From: an uncultured Flavobacteriales bacterium
Lineage (GTDB): Bacteria; Bacteroidota; Bacteroidia; Flavobacteriales_D; Sanyastnellaceae
Length of the DNA stretch: 34,772 nt
Direction of reading: 5' to 3'
Assembly: GCA_937881575.1 (NCBI GenBank)
Contig: CALGEI010000162.1
Coordinates: 1-34,772 of the forward strand
The notes below the pieces were generated by a model. That model saw nothing but the letters and a program-made list of their open reading frames with translations, had not been told where the DNA came from and made no database searches. Shown here piece by piece: positions 23,516 to 34,319 of the stretch. Position 1 is the first letter of the stretch. The number at the start of each line of letters is the position of its first letter. Both the position numbers and the translations under genes were made by a program.

Positions 23516-24193
23516 ATGCGTTCAATCCCATTTTTCTCTATTCTGCTCTGTTCCGTGCCATTGTACTCACAGACGGCGGTGATTTATGATTTTAATTTCG
23601 ACGTTTCACCTTCGATCAGACAAGAATTGCCCGCATTGGATTTAATGGGTCAACCCAAAGGTCATTACAACGGAAGCAAGTGGGTGCCAGAAACAACGAG
23701 GGAAACATTGGATGCCCGTTACGTCAGCTCCATGTGTCAGACGCTTCAGGCGGCCGTTATCGACGAATTGAAGTTTGATGAAGTCGACATTGCCTACCCT
23801 CAAGGTCTGTCAATGCGCGTGCACCCTAGCCGCATGGACGGATTTCCAAAAATGAATTTGAAAAAAGCCTCGAAACAATACAATGTTGATTTTTTCATCT
23901 ACTGTTCCGTTGTAATCAAAGGTCGAGCAAGCGGAAACTTGGTCGTCATGAACAAACAACGCGAGGCTTCACTTAAATTAAACACTGAAATCGCCGTAAC
24001 CGTTTACCGTCCTGACGGCAACATTGAAGAGACCAATTCCATTGAAATCAAGGATTTGACGGCACCTTTTGAAGAGCATCATGTTGCGCAATTGGAGGAT
24101 GAGTTCACGCGTGTCATGGGAGTTTCGTTTTTGAGCCAATCGGACATAGAGCAACTCTTTTTATTCAGTCTTCAGAAATTGATGCGTGAGTAG
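23516..24193 (+). CDS. Uncharacterised exported protein
   Basis: The 225-residue protein has a short signal peptide (PFFSILLCSVPLYSQ) and no other recognisable motif. The mature part mixes strands and helices (DVSPSIRQELPALDL, a VDFFIYCSVVIKGRASGN strand region, EIAVTVYRPDG) and ends in a helical segment. The pattern of paired strands with a YRPDG turn suggests a compact periplasmic domain, but I do not recognise the family. It is isolated: a terminator precedes it and about 250 bases without genes follow it. Confidence 0.75.
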   Translation: MRSIPFFSILLCSVPLYSQTAVIYDFNFDVSPSIRQELPALDLMGQPKGHYNGSKWVPETTRETLDARYVSSMCQTLQAAVIDELKFDEVDIAYPQGLSMRVHPSRMDGFPKMNLKKASKQYNVDFFIYCSVVIKGRASGNLVVMNKQREASLKLNTEIAVTVYRPDGNIEETNSIEIKDLTAPFEEHHVAQLEDEFTRVMGVSFLSQSDIEQLFLFSLQKLMRE

Positions 24194-24446: not shown

Positions 24447-24532
24447 GGAGGTTTGGCAGAGTTGGTCGATCGCACCGGTCTTGAAAACCGGCGTACCGCA
24501 AGGTACCGGGGGTTCGAATCCCTCAGCCTCCG
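24447..24532 (+). tRNA. tRNA-Ser (anticodon UGA)
   Basis: All arms can be drawn by eye. The acceptor stem is GGAGGTT (24447-24453) with AGCCTCC (24525-24531). The anticodon stem is CCGGT/ACCGG (24475-24479 and 24487-24491) around a seven-base loop with TGA at 24482-24484. A variable arm follows, then a T-stem GGGGG/CCCTC around TTCGAAT. The 86-base length and long variable arm fit serine. The discriminator is G24532 and is followed by CAC, so CCA is not encoded and must be added after processing. Confidence 0.95.
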
Positions 24533-24555
24533 CACAGGTGCACATGGCACAATGA

Positions 24556-24584
24556 AAAAGCCCAGTTGACTCTGGGCTTTTTTT
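24556..24584 (+). terminator. Rho-independent terminator after tRNA-Ser
   Basis: AAAAGCCCAG (24556-24565) pairs with CTGGGCTTTT (24572-24581) around TTGACT, followed by more Ts. It separates the tRNA transcript from the P450 cluster. Confidence 0.9.
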
Positions 24585-24685: not shown

Positions 24686-26002
24686 TTGCCAATAACATTG
24701 TCCTCGATTTCCCCCATAGAAGAAGCTCCGGGAGCTTGGCCTTGGATCGGTCATGCATGGCAATTCAGAAAGGATCCTGTCCAGTTCTTCAAGAAAAACA
24801 GTCCGATCATGGGCTCCCTTTACTCCTTTAGAATATTTGGAAGACGAATCCATGTTGTCAATGATCCCGATTTGGTTCAAGAAGTCCTCGTTGGAAACAT
24901 GCCGGCCTACTCTAGACGAAAGACGTACACGTTTCTGCGAGAATTACTTGGTGAAGGCCTAATTACATCGGAAGGTGACCATTGGAGGAAAAACCGCCGG
25001 ACTCTGCAGCCGGGATTCAAGCGAGAGCAATTGACTGGCCTGCTTGAGGGAATCCAATCCACAGCACAAGAATGGATCAATACGAAGCTTGAATCCGCCC
25101 CTCTTTCATTGGATCTGCATGTGGAAATGAGTCAATTGACTTTGCGCATTTTAACCCGTTCCATCATCGATACCCAGTGGGATGAAGACATGGACTCTTT
25201 TCACTTGCATCTATCCGATGCTTGGGACCACTTGTCCGCTCAGCGCTTCCAATCTGGCCAATCCTTCAAGTTGAGCAACCGCAAGAGAATAAAAAAGGGA
25301 CAGAGTGCCATTGAATCGCTCAAAAGAACCGTCGGAAACATCGTGCAGGCCCGAAGAACGTCTTCAAACGAATCTTCTGACTTGTTGGCTATGCTCATGT
25401 CTGCTCGAGACGAAGTAACGGGCGAAGGTTTGTCTGACCAGGAATTGATCGACGAAGTGATGACGCTGGTCATTGCCGGGCATGATACCACGGCGAGTGC
25501 GTTGACTTGGACGGTCTACTGTTTGACTCAAAACCCACAATGGATTGGTGCGATGCGAGATGAAATCGCTCGCTTACCAGAAGGATTGTGGCGCATGGAG
25601 GATCTTCGTCAACTCGACATCACATCGAGGGTCTTGCAAGAAGGCATGCGGCTGTACCCACCTGTTTGGACTTTTGGAAGACGAACCCAATCCGAAACTC
25701 AGCTTGGAGGGTTCAGTTTGCCTCCAGACGCTTCTGTTACAATGCCGCTTGTCGCCATACATTGTCTTGCGTCTAGTTGGAGTCACCCCCACGCATTTCA
25801 TCCGGATCACTTTCTTGCCGATGCCATTCGTGATCGTTCAAAATTCGCCTATTTCCCTTTTGGAGCTGGGCAACGCATGTGCATCGGATCCCATTATGCG
25901 ATGATGGAAATGCAATGTGTCCTTGCCCATGTGTTGGCTCAACTCGATGTCGAATGGTTAGGACCACGTCATCCCGCTTTGGCTCCGCTGGTTACGCTGT
26001 AG
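24686..26002 (+). CDS. Cytochrome P450 monooxygenase
   Basis: The 438-residue P450 has the WxxxR C-helix motif (W100, R104), the I-helix oxygen-activation motif AGHDTT (264-269), ExxR at E319-R322, and the haem loop FGAGQRMCIG with thiolate C399. It has no signal peptide or fused reductase, so separate redox partners are needed. The overall look resembles the CYP4/CYP102-like group that often hydroxylates fatty acyl chains, but the substrate is not proven. No ATG gives a full N-terminus. TTG at 24686 was chosen, and TTG at 24698 would also keep the EEAPG proline region. It heads the cluster, 44 bases before the acyltransferase gene, and lies just past the tRNA-Ser terminator. Confidence 0.94.
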   Translation: MPITLSSISPIEEAPGAWPWIGHAWQFRKDPVQFFKKNSPIMGSLYSFRIFGRRIHVVNDPDLVQEVLVGNMPAYSRRKTYTFLRELLGEGLITSEGDHWRKNRRTLQPGFKREQLTGLLEGIQSTAQEWINTKLESAPLSLDLHVEMSQLTLRILTRSIIDTQWDEDMDSFHLHLSDAWDHLSAQRFQSGQSFKLSNRKRIKKGQSAIESLKRTVGNIVQARRTSSNESSDLLAMLMSARDEVTGEGLSDQELIDEVMTLVIAGHDTTASALTWTVYCLTQNPQWIGAMRDEIARLPEGLWRMEDLRQLDITSRVLQEGMRLYPPVWTFGRRTQSETQLGGFSLPPDASVTMPLVAIHCLASSWSHPHAFHPDHFLADAIRDRSKFAYFPFGAGQRMCIGSHYAMMEMQCVLAHVLAQLDVEWLGPRHPALAPLVTL

Positions 26003-26046
26003 CCTAGCGTTCCTTTACCTTGTGTTTTCAAACCTCGAAAGTCGTC

Positions 26047-26823
26047 ATGAATTTCACCATCTCCGACCGCAAACCCATCCCGAAGGCCCGGCAAGCCGTT
26101 AAGGATTTCCTTGATTTGGCGCATGGAAAGAACTTTGCGCATGGGATGACTGAAGTGGATGTTACGGATGTGCTCGTAGCCCTGAACAACCGGAAGCAAG
26201 CAGGTCTTGATTCCCATTCTCTCGTAGCCCATACCATCTGGGCTTTGGGACGCGCCCTGGCTGAGCACCTCCCCTTGCAAGGCATTCCTTCTGGAAAAGA
26301 GTTGGTTGTATTTGAAGATGTCGATGTCGCCACCATGGTAGAAAAAGATCTGCCCGGTGGAGGTTCCGTTCCGTACCCCTACATTCTCCGGGGCGCCCAG
26401 CGGAAAACCTACGAAGAGATTGTGGCTGACTTGAGCCTCGCTAAGTCCTATGATTTGGAAGCTGCCAAAAAGGCCAAGCCAACCACCCGTTTGGAAGGAT
26501 TGCCCCGATCATTGCGCCTTTGGATCATGAAACGTGCATTGAAAGACCCGAATAAATACAAAGCCGCTTTGGGAACGGTCGCTTTGTCTACACTTGGAAT
26601 GATGATGCGCGAGCGACGCTGGTGGCCCGTGCCCATTGGGCCTCATGCCATTAGCATTGCCACCGGGGCCACATTCCAACGCAATGATGCGGACGGGATC
26701 AAGGACATCCTCTGTGTTTCGCTTCGGTTTGATCATGATTTGATGGATGGTGCACCCATCACACGTTTCGGAGCAAGCTTTGTCCAATATTTGGAGCATC
26801 ATCAGCACTTACTGATGCCATGA
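26047..26823 (+). CDS. Stand-alone 2-oxoacid dehydrogenase E2-type acyltransferase
   Basis: The 258-residue protein is an E2 catalytic domain (chloramphenicol-acetyltransferase fold) with the active-site motif HDLMDG, H230 to G235 (HxxxDG). It lacks lipoyl and peripheral-subunit-binding domains, so it cannot act as a complete pyruvate-dehydrogenase-type E2. A role in moving an acyl group between CoA (or a carrier) and an acceptor is a reasonable inference. The ATG at 26047 begins the fold; earlier in-frame codons from TTG at 26020 add nine residues without conserved sequence. Its TGA overlaps the hydroxylase ATG by four bases (26820-26823). Confidence 0.85.
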   Translation: MNFTISDRKPIPKARQAVKDFLDLAHGKNFAHGMTEVDVTDVLVALNNRKQAGLDSHSLVAHTIWALGRALAEHLPLQGIPSGKELVVFEDVDVATMVEKDLPGGGSVPYPYILRGAQRKTYEEIVADLSLAKSYDLEAAKKAKPTTRLEGLPRSLRLWIMKRALKDPNKYKAALGTVALSTLGMMMRERRWWPVPIGPHAISIATGATFQRNDADGIKDILCVSLRFDHDLMDGAPITRFGASFVQYLEHHQHLLMP

Positions 26824-27710
26824 AGTCCTTCCTGGTCACATTTCAAAATGTCGTGCGCTGGGGGATCTACCCGCTGGCGATGACGCTGGCAACGGTCTTG
26901 TTTTTTCAATTGCAGACGTCCGACGGGAATTTCCTCTTGGCCACCGTCCTGCCCGTATGGGCGTGTTTGGCATTGATCATTTGGGCGGAGTGGTTCATTC
27001 CTTTTCAATCAGAATGGAAACCAAAATGGCAGGATTGGAAACTCGATGGCACCTATGTTATCTTCATTCAGACGATTCTGCCTCAAGTACTGACCTGGTT
27101 GAGTGCGCTATTTGTTTTGCGATGGTGGTCCGGACTCGATTTACCAATTCACCAATGGTGGCCTCATCACTGGTCCATCGGCTGGCAGGAAATTTCCGTC
27201 ATTCTCATTTCTGACCTGCTACGGTATGGATTGCATCGCCTCAGCCATACGTGGACACCTTTATGGAAATTGCACGCCGTGCATCATTCTGTGTTGAAAA
27301 TGTATTGGCTGAATACCGCGCGTTTTCATCCCGTTGAAAAAAGCCTTCAATTCCTCATGGACGTGTTGCCATTCATGTTATTGGGCATCTCCGAAGAGGT
27401 CATTGCGTTGCACTTGGTGCTTTATGGTGTCAATGGATTCTTCCAGCATTGCAACGCCGATGTTCGCTTTGGCTGGCTTAACTACATCGTCAGCAGCACA
27501 GAATTGCACCGCTGGCACCACTCGCAACACGCGAAAGAATCGAACAACAACTACGGCAACAACGTCATCGTTTGGGACCTGCTGTTTGGTACATTCTACT
27601 GGCCCAAAGACCGTTCTGTCACTACATTGGGACTTCAAAACCCGACGTATCCGCAACGGTTTTGGGGTCAAATGAAGGCGCCTGTTCAACAGGATATCGA
27701 TGTGACATGA
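26820..27710 (+). CDS. Membrane fatty-acid hydroxylase / sterol-desaturase superfamily protein
   Basis: The 296-residue integral membrane protein carries the histidine clusters of the superfamily: HRLSH (139-143), HAVHH (152-156) and HRWHH (230-234), with H210 between them. These ligate a di-iron centre that hydroxylates or desaturates lipid substrates. Hydrophobic helices lie at about 13-31, 38-58, 78-100, 123-136 and 178-206. Superfamily members include fatty-acid 2-hydroxylases, alkylglycerol monooxygenase, C4-sterol oxidases and carotenoid hydroxylases; the sequence does not decide among them. It is coupled to both neighbours by four-base overlaps. Confidence 0.93.
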   Translation: MKSFLVTFQNVVRWGIYPLAMTLATVLFFQLQTSDGNFLLATVLPVWACLALIIWAEWFIPFQSEWKPKWQDWKLDGTYVIFIQTILPQVLTWLSALFVLRWWSGLDLPIHQWWPHHWSIGWQEISVILISDLLRYGLHRLSHTWTPLWKLHAVHHSVLKMYWLNTARFHPVEKSLQFLMDVLPFMLLGISEEVIALHLVLYGVNGFFQHCNADVRFGWLNYIVSSTELHRWHHSQHAKESNNNYGNNVIVWDLLFGTFYWPKDRSVTTLGLQNPTYPQRFWGQMKAPVQQDIDVT

Positions 27711-29368
27711 TGAAAGAACGCATTCAAAACATCCTACTCGGTCTGAAGGTTTCTGTCACTCGATGGAAAACCTACCGCCCGTTCATGGCAGCGACAACAA
27801 GCGCTCGGCAGGTCCAGCTGGACTTGTTGCAGGAATTGTTGCAAGCCAATGCGTCTACACGATTTGGTCAAGAACATGGGTTTGCGGGCATCCAGTCTCC
27901 TGAAGACTATGCACAGGCCGTATCCATCCAAGGGTACGATTCTTTGCAACCGTATATCGAGGAGCAGAGTCGGGATCCGGAATCTCATGCACTTGTCAGT
28001 GAACCATTTTTGTTTCACAATGTCACCAGCGGCACCACGTCACAATCCAAGTTCATCCCGGTAACTTCTCGTGTTTTAAAAGCCTTGCAACGCAGCCAAG
28101 ACTTGATGGTGTATCTCCAACAAAAAGCAGTGCCCGGAGCGTATGCTGGAAAAGTTCTTGGCATCGCAAGTCCCGCTGAGGAAGGTGTCAACGAACACGG
28201 CATCACCATCGGATCGGCTTCCGGTCGGTTTTACAAAAACATGCCCCAGGTGGTCGCATCGAAGTACGTTGTCCCCTACCCGGTATTGGAAATCACAGAT
28301 CACGAATGGAAGTATTATACGGTCGTTCTCTGTGCTTTGCAACATCCGGATATCACTTATTTCGCTACGGCTAACCCCAGTACAGTACTGAAGTTGGTGT
28401 CGATATTGAATGAAAGACGTTTGGATTTATGGCGTGATTTGAACACCCGCAAAGTGGTGGGATTGGATGCTCGATATCATCCCCTTCCTGACACCATTCA
28501 TGCGTGTGTTCGACCAACGGCCGATCGCCTAGCAACCCTGCAACCTTTGTTGTGCGGGACAGCGCCCTTGGCCTCCGAAACATTGTGGCCTCAACTTCGG
28601 TTATTCTCGACATGGATCGGCGGGAGTTGCGGAGTCGCATTGAAAGCTGCGCGATACGCCTTTCCTGCGTCTACAGAGATCATCGATTTGGGTTATATCG
28701 CCAGTGAAATTCGCGCGACGGTCACTACAGACCCCATCGGACAAGCCGGATTGCCCACCTTTCAAGATAACTTTTTTGAATTTGTCCAGAAAGATGCGTG
28801 GGAAAACAAGCTTCCCCAATTCCTTTTGCTCGATGCATTGGAGATCGGTCAAGAGTATTACATCTTCATTACGACTTTCGGTGGTTTGTATCGTTACAAC
28901 ATGAACGACATCATTTTGGTCACGGGATATCAGGGCGAGTGCCCGCTCATCCGATTCGTTCAAAAAGGGAAAGGTGTTTGCAACATCACGGGAGAAAAGC
29001 TCTATGAAGGCCAAGTCTTGCAAGCCATTGACACATGGGGCGTGGCTTGTCAACATGTTCAAGCTGTGGCGGATGTGGAGCAGGCGCGTTATGTGGTTTA
29101 TGCCGAATTGAGCGAAGACACGCCGTATACGGAAGAAGCTTCTAGTCGTGTTCTCGATGATGCCTTGCAAGTATTGAATTTGGAATACCGTGATAAAAGA
29201 AGCAGCGGAAGGCTTCATGCGCTCACTTGCCGATTCATGAAACCAGGAGCGCTTCAAGCGATCAAGGCTCATGCTGTGGCCTCTGGGCAACGTGAGGGAC
29301 AGTTCAAAACGGTATTGCTTCAGTACCGTGCCGATTTGGACTTTGATTTTGAGGCCTGGTCCCGATGA
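27707..29368 (+). CDS. GH3 family acyl-acid amido synthetase
   Basis: The 553-residue protein matches the GH3 fold of the adenylate-forming superfamily: ATP motif 1 SGTTSQSKFIP (108-118), the YIASE motif 2 (in IDLGYIASEIR), a YRYNMNDII motif 3, and the C-terminal GQFKTVLLQ. Plant GH3 proteins adenylate carboxylic acids such as jasmonate or auxin and join them to amino acids; bacterial homologues are mostly unassigned. The frame is open upstream to 27572 inside the hydroxylase gene, but ATG 27707 overlaps its stop by ATGA and starts a typical N-terminal helix. It is coupled by ATGA to the following enolase-superfamily gene. Confidence 0.92.
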   Translation: MMKERIQNILLGLKVSVTRWKTYRPFMAATTSARQVQLDLLQELLQANASTRFGQEHGFAGIQSPEDYAQAVSIQGYDSLQPYIEEQSRDPESHALVSEPFLFHNVTSGTTSQSKFIPVTSRVLKALQRSQDLMVYLQQKAVPGAYAGKVLGIASPAEEGVNEHGITIGSASGRFYKNMPQVVASKYVVPYPVLEITDHEWKYYTVVLCALQHPDITYFATANPSTVLKLVSILNERRLDLWRDLNTRKVVGLDARYHPLPDTIHACVRPTADRLATLQPLLCGTAPLASETLWPQLRLFSTWIGGSCGVALKAARYAFPASTEIIDLGYIASEIRATVTTDPIGQAGLPTFQDNFFEFVQKDAWENKLPQFLLLDALEIGQEYYIFITTFGGLYRYNMNDIILVTGYQGECPLIRFVQKGKGVCNITGEKLYEGQVLQAIDTWGVACQHVQAVADVEQARYVVYAELSEDTPYTEEASSRVLDDALQVLNLEYRDKRSSGRLHALTCRFMKPGALQAIKAHAVASGQREGQFKTVLLQYRADLDFDFEAWSR

Positions 29369-30468
29369 AGCTGACCTGCCGCATGGTGTCGATTCCTTTT
29401 CAATCGGCCTTCTCTCACCACCGTGCTACACGCGCCGTCAGCGAAAGCTTTTGGGTCGAAGCATCGCATTCAGGTCAACTTGGAATTGGTGAGGGCTGTC
29501 CAAGAAGTTATGTAACCGGTGAAACACCCGAAAGCTGTGAAGCGTTCTTTGATAGAATCGCTCCTTTGGCTTCCACTTGCATTGATGATTTGCCTGCCTT
29601 GCAATCGTTTCGCAAAGAGCACCGCGACGACATTCTTCGGAACCCTAGCGCTTGGTGCGCCATGGAATTGGCGATGCTTGACCTGCTCGCTCGGATTCAA
29701 GGACAATCGTTGGAAGTGTATTTAGGATGGCCTATCCTGCAAGGGCCGTTTTGTTATAGCGGGGTTTTGGGCTCAGATATCGGCAGCGTTTTTGAAGAGA
29801 AATTGAAGGCCCATGTGGATCTCGGTATTCAAGACTTCAAATTGAAGTGGGATCGGGATCTTGTATTCAATCGATCGCGTTTCGAGGCATTGAAAGCGCT
29901 GGTGCCCGATGCCAAGATCCGCATTGACGCGAACAACTGTTGGGAGCATGTGCAGGAAGCCATCAAGGATTTAGCGGGCTGGGATGTCTCGCGTTATTCT
30001 CAGCTTGATATCTGGGCAATCGAAGAGCCTTTGGTATCGCTTCGATTTGAAGATCTGCTTGAATTCTCCACCTTATTAGATTGCCAGGTGATCTTGGATG
30101 AAGCCGTGTGCAATGTGGACCAACTCCTTCCCTTCCTTCAACATCCCGATCGCTTCCTGTTGAACCTTCGAGTCAGCAAGTGTGGAGGTCTCTTGCAAGC
30201 TTCCGAAATGGCTGCTGCGTGCATGGATGCCGGAATGGGCGTAATCGTGGGAGCTCAGGTGGGTGAGACCAGCGTTCTCACGCGTGCTGCGCTGTCCATT
30301 GCTGAGATGATGGAGAAACACTGTGTCGCTCAAGAAGGCGCCTATGGCACCTACTTGCTTTCAGAAGACATGACGCATCCCACCTTGATGTTTGGTCGTC
30401 AAGGCCTACTCCATCCTGCTGACCTTGGATTGAAAGCCGGTTTGGGTTTGCAGACAAAGCAGGCCTGA
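29365..30468 (+). CDS. Enolase-superfamily enzyme (MLE subgroup, epimerase/racemase-like)
   Basis: The 367-residue protein has a capping domain (about 1-120) and an (alpha/beta)7-beta barrel with the MLE-subgroup residues: the K159-x-K161 pair (FKLKWD), metal ligands D188 (RIDAN), E220 (AIEEP) and D245 (LDEAV), and the opposite-face base K272 (RVSKCGG). Subgroup members include muconate cycloisomerase, o-succinylbenzoate synthase, N-acylamino-acid racemase and dipeptide epimerases. The specificity-determining residues near the barrel end (GAQVGETSV) do not point to one. No other menaquinone genes adjoin it, so o-succinylbenzoate synthase is not favoured. It is the last gene of the cluster and is coupled to the GH3 gene. 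Confidence 0.88.
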   Translation: MKLTCRMVSIPFQSAFSHHRATRAVSESFWVEASHSGQLGIGEGCPRSYVTGETPESCEAFFDRIAPLASTCIDDLPALQSFRKEHRDDILRNPSAWCAMELAMLDLLARIQGQSLEVYLGWPILQGPFCYSGVLGSDIGSVFEEKLKAHVDLGIQDFKLKWDRDLVFNRSRFEALKALVPDAKIRIDANNCWEHVQEAIKDLAGWDVSRYSQLDIWAIEEPLVSLRFEDLLEFSTLLDCQVILDEAVCNVDQLLPFLQHPDRFLLNLRVSKCGGLLQASEMAAACMDAGMGVIVGAQVGETSVLTRAALSIAEMMEKHCVAQEGAYGTYLLSEDMTHPTLMFGRQGLLHPADLGLKAGLGLQTKQA

Positions 30469-30541
30469 CCGCCTCTCCCACTTTATTCTTCATGGGTTTG
30501 AACATGCCCTCTTTCTGTCTGAACGATAGGCTCGGAAATAA

Positions 30542-30574
30542 CAAAGCCGCCCTTCCATAAGAAAGGCGGCTTTG
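30542..30574 (-). terminator. Terminator between convergent genes
   Basis: CAAAGCCGCC (30542-30551) pairs perfectly with GGCGGCTTTG (30565-30574). On the minus strand the stem is followed by a T-rich stretch (TTATTTCC), so it mainly ends the giant repeat gene, whose stop is 26 bases away. It may also stop the plus-strand cluster. Confidence 0.8.
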
Positions 30575-30599
30575 CACGAAAATCAAATCTATCAGAGCA

Positions 30600-33500
30600 T
30601 TACTCAGGGCAAGGCAATCCGAATGAAGAAAGCAAGATCAACAAGTCGGAAGTTCCAATGATGTTGTCTAAGTTCAAGTCACCCAAGCAAGCCGGGGAGT
30701 AATCACACAAGCCGTTGTCATTCACAGCAGCTGCGTCATAGTTCGTGGCGCTCGCGTTGGTACAACCAGCAGCGCTGCTATCGTTCGCAATCAACAACTG
30801 TCCTGCTTCGCCTGAGTTTCCACAGACGTCGGTAGCTGTATAGATCCGAGTTACGCTGTAGCGTCCGTCATTCAAACGACCGGCATAGTCTACCCACGTG
30901 ATGCCTTCAACTCCTGTTGCATCCGACGTACTTGTGGTGTAATCGTTGGCAGCCCAGTCAGCAACCGGAGTTGCCAATTCAAGCATACCGGTCATCAAAA
31001 TGTGAGGAGCTCCAAATTCACCGACACATCCCGCAACTTCATCGAAGTCACAGTTGCCATCGTTGTCACTATCTGTGCAGATTGTTTGATCACAATCATC
31101 CCATCCAGCAGGAATATACGTGCATGTGATGTTGTTGCTCAATGTCGCTGTAGCGTCATAGTTACAAGCTGATTCAATCGTACAGCCAGCACAGGATGAG
31201 AATTCACAAGAACCATCATTCTCTGTAGAACCCAAAGCATAGTTACAAGCTAAAGTAACGGTACAACCATACACCTCTTCTTGGTCACAGACACCGTCTT
31301 CGTCATCATCGATGAGACATGCTCCGTAGCAATCGACATATTCACTTGCTGGATAAATACAAGACTCATCCATGTCAGTAGCAGACGCACTGTAGTTACA
31401 AGCGTTAGAGTCCATACAGCCGGGAACCTCGTCTTCGTCACATGTGCCATCCTCATCGGTATCATTCAGACAGACTCCGTCACAGTCAAAGTGGTCAGCA
31501 CCATACAAATCTGTTGGATATTGGCATGACGATGGTACACTTGTAGTAGCCTCGTCATCATAATTGCACGCTACAGGATCGATGCAACCTTCACAGGATG
31601 TGAAATCACATCCTGTGTTTTCTGTTGCTGCACTATCATAGTTACAAGCAATTGAATTCGTGCAGCCTAGAATTTCTTCAGCGTCACAAGTTCCGTCATT
31701 ATCAGTGTCAACGCCTGTGCCTCCGCAATCACCGCAAGCATCTGAGTAGAGGCAAGAACTGTCGTCATCTGTCGCAGCAGTATTGTAGTTGCAGGCATTC
31801 ACGTCTGTGCAGCCGTCGACTTCATCCCCATCGCAAGTGCCATCATTGTCAGCATCTCCATCCACTACTAATCCAGTGCCGTCTGTTGCTCCAGAGCAAG
31901 AGTCGCAGGAGTCTTCTACATAAACGCAAGAAATAGGCTCATTCAATGTAACGGAGGCGTCATAATTACAAGCATCAATTGCATTGCAGCCGACACATGA
32001 GGTCACTTCGCATGATGCGTCGTCGTTGTTCGCAGTAGAATCGTAATTGCAAGCCCCAAACGTGGTACAACCAGAGATCACACATGAGTTATCGTCAATT
32101 GTAGAAGTCGCATCATAATTGTCTGCATCAGCGTTTGTGCAGCCGTAGCAGGAATAATCACAAGTTGCAGAATAAATATTATCAACATCGTAATCGCAGC
32201 CAGCAGTATTCATGCAACCTACGCATGACACGAAATCACAGGGTCCTTCATCGCCATAATTACATGCGTAAGTGTTATCGCAAGTGGTAATCGGTGGTGG
32301 GTTGCCCATCATGCCGCCGGAACAAGGCGTATCTCCGCCAACTGCTGGAGAGCACATTGAGAGGACGGCGTTCGTATAGTTCGGGTTATAATTGCAATCG
32401 AATGGAAGATAACAGCCATCAATGCTAGCGTTGCAAGAGTCATCGTCTTCTGTGGCGAGAGGATCAAAATTCGGAGCAGAGTTATCAGTGCAACCAGCCA
32501 CTTCGTTATCGTCACAAATCCCATTGATGTTGGCATCGCCAGAAACGACTGTGCCCGTTCCGTCTGTTACGCCACTGCATGAATCGCAATTGACAGGATA
32601 AAGGCAAGTGGGAGTGCTAACGGTTGCGTATTCATCATAGTTGCATGCTGAATCGACTGTGCAACCTTCGCAAGGAAGGTACTCACACTCAGCATTGAGA
32701 ATATCATAGTTACAAGCATCAGCATCGACACAAAGGTCTATAGAATCACAGATGCCATCTCCATCGATGTCGGCAGCGCATGATCCGCCGCACGCACCAA
32801 TAGCATCGTCAAACTGACAAGTACCCGCATCGGTAGCAGTGGAATCGTAATTACAAGAAGTGTTGTCCTGACAACCTGTAATTTCAGCATTGTTGCAAAT
32901 ACCGTCATTGTCAGTGTCTCCATCAACAACCGTTCCTGTTCCATTTGTTTCACCCGAGCATGAATCACAAGACTGAGTAGCAAAAACACAGAGACTTGCG
33001 TTATGAATCAGTCCCGATCCAATGTTGTAGTTGCAGGCGTTTGCATTCAAGCATGCACCACATGATGTGAATTCACATGATCCATCATTTGTATTTGTTG
33101 ATGAGCCGCCATAGTTACATGCACCGGACTCCGTACAACCTTCTACAATTGGCACGCAACTTCCATCAACCTCCGTAAAGCCTGTGAGGCAGTCGCCGTT
33201 GCAGTCAGCGTTTGATTCGGCATAAGTGCAAAGTTCATTGTCTGCATCTGTTGTATTCGTATCATCATAGTTGCATGCGGTTACATCCTTACAGCCGACC
33301 ACTTCATCTTCATCACAAACGCCATCACCGTCAGCATCATTTAAGCAGACTCCTGCACAATCAAAGTGAGAAGCTCCATACAAGTCAAAAGGATAATCGC
33401 AGCTTTCCGAATTTCCAATGGGCGCTTCACTGTTGTAGTTGCAAGCATTTTCAACCGTGCAGTCTGAGCATGAAGTGTATTCACATCCCTCGTTTGTGGT

Positions 33501-34319
33501 CGCTGCACAATCATAATTGCATGCCGCGGCATTTGTACAACCCATGGCTTCGTTGTCGTCATATACATTGTTGCCATTGGCATCGGCTACAGCATTTCCT
33601 AATTCAGTTGTAGTTGATTGAACATAGACCGTGATCTCATTCCATAGTTTTTGATTGCCACAGTTGTCTAAAACTTGAATAGCGAATGTGTAGTAACCCT
33701 CTACAGTGGCATCAAAGCCAGTTCCTGCAGGGTTCAATGCTGCAATCTCAGAAGATCCCATATTGGTATTGATACCAAATGACGAGAAACTGGATGCCGA
33801 AGTCAACGGATTGCCATCAAAGGCAGAACCGATGTTAATCGAATACATGTCCTCTAAAGTGTAATCGAAACATGGGTCAAAGTCGATGTGCATAATCACG
33901 TCTACGCTATCAAATGCGCCAGCATCCAAACCGGCGTACATCAAGATGTTCCAATTGGATTCTGGACCAGTTCCTACTGAACCGTTCTGACTGGCTAGAG
34001 AGTAGCCTGGTTCTACAAGATACGTATTCCCGTCAGCTGAGACATTGTCATTCGGCGCCGTGGTGTTCCGTGCCTTCACACCTAAAAACGTGTGAACATC
34101 AGCATTGGACCAAATGGCCAAGTTGTTATCAGAAATCCCAGAACCCAGAGACCAATACGATGAGTTGTTCAGGCCATCAAGGAAATCTGAACCCGCGAAA
34201 TAGTCGGATTCAGTTTGCTGTGCGCCGAAGCCTGTGTAGGACACAGGTGACGGTTCATTGCAGATTTGACCCCACAAAAGTGTAGGGGCAAGGAACAGGA
34301 GGAAAGTGAGAGCACGCAT
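30600..34319 (-). CDS. Giant secreted cysteine-rich repeat protein with dockerin-like C-terminus
   Basis: The 1239-residue protein has a signal peptide (LTFLLFLAPTLLWG). An unassigned N-terminal domain (about 18-255) contains a paired DPCFDY/DNCGNQ cysteine region. About 22 repeat units (30700-33545) carry the core GC-x4-ACNYD, many followed by an acidic D-x-D-x-DG-x-CD-x-x-EV loop resembling thrombospondin type 3 calcium sites. The last part has an HYR-like segment (RIYTATDVCGNSG) and ends in a single dockerin-like EF-hand (GDLNLDNIIGTSDLLILLSSFG). No T9SS sorting domain is visible, although such proteins are usually surface-exposed. A calcium-stabilised, disulfide-rich stalk or adhesin is inferred. 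It is divergent from the RRM gene. Confidence 0.9.
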   Translation of the reverse strand: MRALTFLLFLAPTLLWGQICNEPSPVSYTGFGAQQTESDYFAGSDFLDGLNNSSYWSLGSGISDNNLAIWSNADVHTFLGVKARNTTAPNDNVSADGNTYLVEPGYSLASQNGSVGTGPESNWNILMYAGLDAGAFDSVDVIMHIDFDPCFDYTLEDMYSINIGSAFDGNPLTSASSFSSFGINTNMGSSEIAALNPAGTGFDATVEGYYTFAIQVLDNCGNQKLWNEITVYVQSTTTELGNAVADANGNNVYDDNEAMGCTNAAACNYDCAATTNEGCEYTSCSDCTVENACNYNSEAPIGNSESCDYPFDLYGASHFDCAGVCLNDADGDGVCDEDEVVGCKDVTACNYDDTNTTDADNELCTYAESNADCNGDCLTGFTEVDGSCVPIVEGCTESGACNYGGSSTNTNDGSCEFTSCGACLNANACNYNIGSGLIHNASLCVFATQSCDSCSGETNGTGTVVDGDTDNDGICNNAEITGCQDNTSCNYDSTATDAGTCQFDDAIGACGGSCAADIDGDGICDSIDLCVDADACNYDILNAECEYLPCEGCTVDSACNYDEYATVSTPTCLYPVNCDSCSGVTDGTGTVVSGDANINGICDDNEVAGCTDNSAPNFDPLATEDDDSCNASIDGCYLPFDCNYNPNYTNAVLSMCSPAVGGDTPCSGGMMGNPPPITTCDNTYACNYGDEGPCDFVSCVGCMNTAGCDYDVDNIYSATCDYSCYGCTNADADNYDATSTIDDNSCVISGCTTFGACNYDSTANNDDASCEVTSCVGCNAIDACNYDASVTLNEPISCVYVEDSCDSCSGATDGTGLVVDGDADNDGTCDGDEVDGCTDVNACNYNTAATDDDSSCLYSDACGDCGGTGVDTDNDGTCDAEEILGCTNSIACNYDSAATENTGCDFTSCEGCIDPVACNYDDEATTSVPSSCQYPTDLYGADHFDCDGVCLNDTDEDGTCDEDEVPGCMDSNACNYSASATDMDESCIYPASEYVDCYGACLIDDDEDGVCDQEEVYGCTVTLACNYALGSTENDGSCEFSSCAGCTIESACNYDATATLSNNITCTYIPAGWDDCDQTICTDSDNDGNCDFDEVAGCVGEFGAPHILMTGMLELATPVADWAANDYTTSTSDATGVEGITWVDYAGRLNDGRYSVTRIYTATDVCGNSGEAGQLLIANDSSAAGCTNASATNYDAAAVNDNGLCDYSPACLGDLNLDNIIGTSDLLILLSSFGLPCPE
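30700..33545 (-). repeat. About 22 diverged ACNYD-type cysteine-rich protein repeats
   Basis: Units of roughly 22-57 residues share a GC-x4-ACNYD head and a SCxY/F-type middle. Two broad variants alternate: a short unit ending in a C-x2-C pair, and a long one ending in an acidic calcium-loop-like segment. The nucleotide copies have diverged, so this is an old protein repeat array rather than a recent tandem expansion. Some units have lost the ACNY core (for example those reading SAPNFD, DADNYD and AGCDYD). Confidence 0.9.

Follow-up and report, generated by a model that had tools for sequence, protein, structure and literature searches.

A cassette that encodes a GH3-family acyl-acid amido synthetase and an enzyme of the enolase superfamily, frequently accompanied by a membrane hydroxylase, was found to recur in the genomes of distantly related bacteria, and the conserved unit is this nearly constant GH3-enolase pair with its frequent hydroxylase, not all five genes present in the DNA under study. 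The latter, hereafter called the window, is a stretch of 34,772 nucleotides from an uncultured Flavobacteriales bacterium, in which the core is preceded by the genes of a cytochrome P450 and a stand-alone E2/CAT-like acyltransferase, which constitute an add-on to the core and do not belong to the conserved unit. The genes are strongly linked, and across a broader range of genomes than the window alone could reveal. The chemistry of the cassette is a well-founded hypothesis, in which the formation of an N-acyl amino acid lipid with an inverted amino-acid stereocentre is placed just on the probable side; gene linkage, gene fusion, motif integrity and folds are what was observed, and a putative product, its amino acid and its stereochemistry are inferred.

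All five genes lie on the forward strand, and their coordinates, together with the four-base ATGA overlaps at the last three junctions (26820-26823, 27707-27710 and 29365-29368) described in the first-pass annotation, were confirmed by direct reading of the open reading frames. The cytochrome P450 gene (24686-26002; Pfam p450, 247.3 bits), whose TTG start codon at 24686 is uncertain, is followed by the E2-like gene (26047-26823; Pfam 2-oxoacid_dh, 33.7 bits), for which the ATG at 26047 is a more likely start than the alternative TTG at 26020, because the alignment of the relatives begins there; this start leaves a gap of 44 nt after the P450 stop. Downstream are located the genes of an FA_hydroxylase-superfamily membrane protein (26820-27710; Pfam FA_hydroxylase, 98.8 bits), the GH3 protein (27707-29368; Pfam GH3 N, M and C domains, 178.9, 68 and 53.3 bits) and an enolase-superfamily member of the MLE subgroup (29365-30468; Pfam MR_MLE_C, 80.9 bits). 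All of these scores exceed the curated cut-offs, by which the five family assignments of the annotation are borne out, and the alignments revealed intact catalytic motifs in all five proteins.

A GH3-protein scan of genome contigs returned 69 loci, 17 of which encode a GH3 that is 37-45% identical to that of the window. The enolase gene adjoins the GH3 gene in all 17, and the hydroxylase occurs in 14; it is missing from two Bdellovibrionota loci (L054 and L097), and the contig of L040 starts at the GH3 gene. Among the 52 distant GH3 loci (26-32% identical), none showed an enolase or a hydroxylase above 45 bits within the fetched flanks, some of the contigs being short. Since the two Bdellovibrionota loci keep the enolase without the hydroxylase, the enolase tracks the GH3 and not the hydroxylase. 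Scans with the enolase profile (threshold E <= 1e-45) yielded one match beyond the window's own genome among 395 genomes of its phylum, two beyond it among 399 genomes of its order, two beyond the central genome among 369 genomes of the class of a gammaproteobacterial locus, 12 beyond the two already known among 339 genomes of the phylum of L097 (Bacteriovorax stolpii), and five beyond the central genome among 77 genomes of the phylum of L053 (Nitrospinaceae); with so few matches per clade scanned, the cassette is therefore rare everywhere sampled. In the 17 loci from the later enolase-profile scans, the enolase is accompanied by a GH3 in 16 and by a hydroxylase in 11.

Taken as a whole, GH3 and enolase stand together in 39 of 40 loci, window included, and the full five-family set exists in seven loci besides the window. 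Because each locus was chosen by one gene, either GH3 or enolase, the partner gene furnishes independent evidence of linkage, and because the gene order recurs in distant genomes, the association is greater than expected by chance. Consequently, the conserved co-occurrence proposed in the annotation as a check was recovered across phyla for GH3 and enolase, but the P450 and E2-like pair was detected in only 8/40 loci (the window and seven relatives), with the same order in all. This pair is carried by seven of the eight rows of the window's GH3 clade, the exception being the cut contig of L040, and also by L111, which belongs to another clade; it has therefore been gained, or retained via losses, more than once. 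L111 and L117 both contain P450, E2-like, fused hydroxylase-GH3 and enolase genes, and L118 and L119 harbor the core genes. The weakest of the 40 loci are L170, where GH3 is absent beside the enolase, and L171, where the GH3 is only 25.7% identical. A single gene lies between GH3 and enolase in L168 and L169 (S33-type hydrolase) and in L171 (aldehyde dehydrogenase), and the contig of L160 is cut inside the GH3 gene. The GH3-protein search gave L039 (G024) as the sole GH3 orthologue among 60 relatives. Two stretches of viral contigs matched a pattern, neither of which was confirmed, and a plasmid search returned six records, all 24-28% identical.

In the proposed pathway, the GH3 protein would use ATP to adenylate a free fatty acid and then couple the acyl group to an amino acid at its alpha-amine, as suggested by its family and intact motifs. 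The enolase may take off and return the alpha proton of the resulting N-acyl amino acid to give the D form or a D/L mixture, and the OlsE-like membrane protein, in many relatives one polypeptide with GH3, would hydroxylate either the headgroup or the acyl chain. In the window's lineage, the P450 would add another hydroxyl and the E2/CAT-like enzyme could O-acylate a hydroxyl to form an acyloxy aminolipid, while in other lineages alpha/beta hydrolases may perform the O-acylation, as OlsI does in Singulisphaera. The hydroxylated, alpha-inverted acyl-amino-acid pathway put forward in the annotation thus persists as the best hypothesis, with its substrates and product still conjectural, and it is favored by the GH3-enolase linkage, the hydroxylase-GH3 fusion, the intact motifs, the OlsH/OlsE precedent and the lack of a PF13444 protein in the genome. 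Weighing against it are the wide shortfall of GH3 and hydroxylase from the OlsH and OlsE cut-offs, the tied enolase folds, the top P450 scores with terpene-oxidising families, the view in PMC12493201 that N-acyl ornithine is an improbable product of Bacteroidota GH3s, the lack of any need for a racemase in the characterised pathway, and the rarity of the cassette and its loss in the genus. The supposition that the five genes act as one set fared less well: the full set does recur in the seven other loci, but it is not a fixed unit, and none of 21 congeneric genomes holds it intact, two of them having remnants.

The neighbors of the core differ among lineages. A CocE/S15 hydrolase that carries a hydrophobic domain at its N-terminus was identified by Pfam in L045 and L050 and by similarity in L048, L049 and L051, and the hydrophobic domain alone, with about four membrane segments as judged by eye, adjoins the hydroxylase in L052, L053, L055, L119 and L155-L159; the stand-alone copies of this domain (c3) gave no Pfam match. 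S33-type hydrolases were observed in L097, L168 and L169, an LCM-type methyltransferase in L041, L047 and, weakly, L164, an ICMT-type methyltransferase in L161 and L163 with an ORF of equal length in L162, an MMPL exporter in L161, and PhyH in L045. The methyltransferases, the MMPL exporter and the alpha/beta hydrolases near the core agree with a lipid product, and since OlsI is an alpha/beta hydrolase, the E2-like gene and the neighboring hydrolases may share one acyl-transfer role. It is tentatively suggested, as a possibility somewhat short of even, that a cross-phylum pathway makes hydroxylated N-acyl-D-amino-acid membrane lipids, in which amidation and hydroxylation often reside in one polypeptide, the enolase sets the D configuration, and O-acylation is carried out by unrelated enzymes (E2/CAT-like, CocE/S15-like or S33-like) according to lineage. 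That members of one GH3 clade occur in several phyla beside an enolase, many of them as hydroxylase fusions, provides a testable substrate hypothesis for one group of GH3 proteins. A D-amino acid in the lipid would make its stereochemistry unusual, which could influence how enzymes degrade it, how the immune system recognises it and whether it can serve as a biomarker; the E2-like gene would, if its assumed role is true, show the E2/CAT fold at work in the acylation of a lipid.

The P450 keeps C399, E319, R322, A264, G265, H266, T268 and T269 essentially invariant in 8/8 rows, and at position 267 the window has D, so that its motif at 264-269 reads AGHDTT. Cys399 is taken by us to be the haem cysteine, residues 319 and 322 to be those of ExxR, and 264-269 to be the region of the I-helix acid-alcohol pair. 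Its top NCBIfam scores, far below the cut-offs, were obtained with the terpene-oxidising albaflavenone monooxygenase and pentalenene oxygenase, which accords with an alternative in which the product would be no membrane lipid but a specialised metabolite or small signal, and the acid used by GH3 would be terpenoid, aromatic or jasmonate-like, formed by the P450 and the hydroxylase; plant GH3s, according to PMC12493201, act on hormones. Nevertheless, this alternative is considered unlikely, for the core stands without a P450 in 32/40 loci, the curated family nearest to the hydroxylase acts on lipids, and neither a terpene synthase nor another scaffold gene was seen among the neighbors scanned. 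A weak P450-like ORF (22.8% identity) was also noticed in L052, on the opposite strand about 2 kb beyond the enolase.

With respect to the E2-like protein of the proposed acyl-amino-acid lipid pathway, the Pfam 2-oxoacid_dh match covers only the C-terminal 48 residues, and H230, D234 and G235 of the HxxxDG motif are invariant in 8/8 rows. Its predicted model (pLDDT 70.0, from 8 sequences) best matched the E2 catalytic domain 3mae (Z 19.2, rmsd 3.5, 191 residues), with chloramphenicol acetyltransferases ranking lower (Z 15.6). The protein thus resembles these enzymes in its modelled E2/CAT fold and its HxxxDG motif, but an additional helical segment is modelled at approximately residues 137-175, and it differs from the E2 of 2-oxoacid dehydrogenases in being a stand-alone protein of 258 aa, too short for a lipoyl or binding domain. 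Only 2-oxoacid_dh was matched in the Pfam search, which found neither lipoyl nor peripheral-subunit-binding domains.

The enolase contains K159, K161, K272, D188, E220 and D245, all invariant in 23/23 rows, of which K159/K161 (KxK) and K272 are presumably the catalytic lysines of a racemase and D188, E220 and D245 the metal ligands. The best NCBIfam match was N-acetyl-D-Glu racemase (78.7 bits, cut-off 400), and 2p88, an N-succinyl Arg/Lys racemase, was the top solved relative of the enolase profile. The predicted model (pLDDT 90.3) superimposed on 2p88 with Z 40.0 and rmsd 2.2 over 348 residues at 21% identity, and on 3jva, 3q45, 4m0x and 2chr with Z 39.7, 39.3, 39.2 and 39.1; since these scores tie within one Z unit, the fold does not separate racemase, dipeptide epimerase and cycloisomerase, and Foldseek alone put dipeptide epimerases first. 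The window's enzyme shares with 2p88 and the N-acylamino acid racemases the fold, both catalytic lysines and the metal ligands, but its family conserves residues of its own, for example H18, R23, R47 and Y49. The dipeptide epimerases (YcjG and 3jva) likewise have the same fold and catalytic lysines. In these enzymes, a DxD near the barrel end holds the free amine of the substrate. This site is present in YcjG and L121, whereas all 23 cassette enolases carry EG[AGS][YF]G in its place, which is consistent with an N-acylated substrate and argues against one whose N-terminal amine is free. The dipeptide epimerase (AEE) option raised in the annotation was therefore rejected.

The enolase might instead be a dehydratase or cycloisomerase, such that a beta-hydroxyl placed by the hydroxylase or the P450 is followed by water loss or cyclisation to a dehydroamino-acid or lactone-type product. 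The MLE subgroup includes cycloisomerases, among them the structurally tied 2-chloromuconate cycloisomerase 4m0x, and the hydroxylase gene usually adjoins the enolase. The linkage of the enolase to GH3 even without a hydroxylase (L054, L097 and others), as well as the retention of both racemase lysines, makes this option quite improbable.

The GH3 of the favored N-acyl amino acid lipid route possesses all three N, middle and C-terminal domains. T107, S108, G109, T111 and K115, then S333 and E334, and finally G393, L394, Y395, R396, Y397, N400 and D401 are invariant in 18/18 rows (an alignment from which L051, L111 and L117-L119 were left out), and they fall in the three nucleotide-binding motifs as defined in PMC12493201. 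Among solved structures, plant GH3s match best, with GH3.12 in first place, and the closest titled relatives are from Flavobacteriales MAGs. In a tree of 22 cassette GH3s and eight outgroup GH3s drawn from the 52 distant loci, the former gathered into one clade (22/22 rows, support 100/100); L105 was dropped for its long branch, L051, with a frame break, was kept out of it, and the 17 later enolase-profile loci lie outside all alignments and trees. Bacteroidota encode many GH3 proteins, and the window's own genome has two GH3 loci besides that of the cassette.

For the hydroxylase, the nearest curated family was NCBIfam OlsE, at 159.6 bits against a cut-off of 475. H139, H143, H152, H155, H156, H170, H210, H230, H233 and H234 are invariant in 18/18 rows (L040, L048, L051, L054 and L097 omitted), and we assume these motifs to form the di-iron site of the FA_hydroxylase superfamily. 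Of the 39 relatives, 20 encode hydroxylase and GH3 as a single open frame: 14 of the first 22, with frames of about 850 aa (truncated on the 5' side in L048), and six more (822-860 aa) among the 17 later loci. L051 shows an apparent fusion with a frame break. Two distinct genes, overlapping by 4 bases, encode hydroxylase and GH3 in the window and in L045 and L118; the genes are likewise distinct in L052, L053 and L155-L159.

No PF13444 match was found in the window's own genome, whereas the control was found in 2/14 genomes; PF13444 is the OlsB-type family. This result, along with the fused L041 protein, whose first part matches NCBIfam OlsE and second part OlsH, both below the cut-offs, invites a reading as ornithine-lipid synthesis proper, with GH3 as OlsH, the hydroxylase as OlsE, the E2-like protein as O-acyltransferase and the enolase in a side role. 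As described in PMC12493201 (2025), OlsH is a GH3 that makes N-acyl ornithine (lyso-ornithine lipid) from free fatty acid and ATP, and OlsI, the O-acyltransferase of that pathway, is an alpha/beta hydrolase; OlsE, according to PMC3972451, hydroxylates the ornithine moiety of ornithine lipid. The OlsH/OlsI/OlsG pathway of Singulisphaera acidiphila resembles the cassette in its amide-forming GH3, in an operon with lipid-modifying genes, and in that alpha/beta hydrolases also adjoin relatives of the window's core. However, the window's GH3 reaches only 71.2 bits against the OlsH cut-off of 620, OlsG was not seen, and the enolase and hydroxylase are present; the characterised pathway needs no racemase. 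Likewise, the hydroxylase shares with OlsE the superfamily, an alignment over nearly the whole model and the motif histidines, but scores far below the cut-off and is commonly GH3-fused in relatives, and plain membership of OlsH or OlsE was rejected. Given also that both cut-offs are missed widely, that the most constant partner, the enolase, is not known to take part in making ornithine lipids, and that PMC12493201 argues that Bacteroidota GH3s, whose functions it leaves open, are unlikely makers of N-acyl ornithine, this reading is very unlikely. A search of mostly open-access literature, bioRxiv preprints excluded, found no paper joining these families; the annotation's view that no pathway had been described thus holds for the combination, but the synthesis of ornithine lipids by way of a GH3 was published in 2025 (PMC12493201).

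An intact copy of the cassette was found in none of the 21 other genomes of the genus, several of which are incomplete. This would suit a chance adjacency of five unrelated genes, a notion rendered negligible by the same order in distant genomes, the gene fusion, the clade-specific linkage and the remnants in two congeners. In G015 (L127), the first part of the P450 remains in two frames of 65 and 75% identity, followed by the window's 3' flank, and in G008 (L128) the last part of the enolase remains in two frames of 86 and 79% identity; both remnants adjoin the same tRNA-Ser, so relatives once had the cassette at this site and later lost it. The tRNA is present in G010 (L129), with nothing of the cassette or the downstream gene in the fetched stretch, and it was not found in L130. 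GC content is 0.49-0.52 across 25001-31000 and 0.44-0.49 elsewhere, a difference that hinted at a recent arrival beside the tRNA, an idea rejected in view of the decayed pieces at the same site; among the direct repeats listed, none was seen to repeat the tRNA end.

The window's own genome is a 2.59-Mb assembly of 213 contigs that is 99% complete. The cassette is bordered on one side by the tRNA-Ser(tga) gene (24447-24533, forward strand; ARAGORN), after which the terminator scan placed a terminator-like hairpin at 24554-24583, and on the other side by a converging gene of 1239 aa (30600-34319). Promoter-like sites in the window numbered 9 versus 5.5 (sd 2.4) in shuffles, and terminator-like sites 6 versus 7.1. 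In the interval that separates the enolase gene from the 1239-aa gene running towards it, direct reading disclosed a perfect 10-bp inverted repeat with a loop of 14 nt (30542-30575). This repeat, absent from the list of the terminator scan, whose loop limit is 8 nt, may serve as a terminator shared by both genes.

In two congeners of the window's genome, decayed pieces of the cassette were found at the same tRNA-Ser site as in the window, one derived from the P450 gene (L127:3803-4098) and the other from the enolase gene (L128:3815-4266), which points to loss of the cassette in both. The GC content over the cassette (window 25001-31000) was 0.49-0.52, compared with 0.44-0.49 elsewhere in the window.

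The forward-strand gene at window 23516-24193 encodes a 225-aa protein that matched neither Pfam nor NCBIfam, and that was 57-64% identical to its counterparts in four congeners, as against 76-91% for the adjoining TPR protein. Beyond the enolase gene, a 1239-aa protein with cysteine-rich repeats is encoded on the reverse strand (window 30600-34319), within which ACNYD-like units recur, and a 1494-aa relative occupies the equivalent position in L127.

Among the relatives carrying the GH3 and enolase core, two harbor an ICMT-type membrane methyltransferase gene close to the enolase gene (L161:4718-5356 and L163:9004-9642), and an ORF in L162 equals these genes in length. A hydrophobic domain of ~150 aa, devoid of a Pfam match, either adjoins the hydroxylase gene (L052:2041-2478, L053:6620-7069 and L119:14407-14853) or forms the front of a CocE/S15 hydrolase, as the N-terminus of the ORF at L045:10825-13086. 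Distant GH3 genes occur as adjacent pairs in loci L064, L069, L073, L074, L081, L083 and L089, which derive from Bacteroidales and Spirochaetia MAGs.
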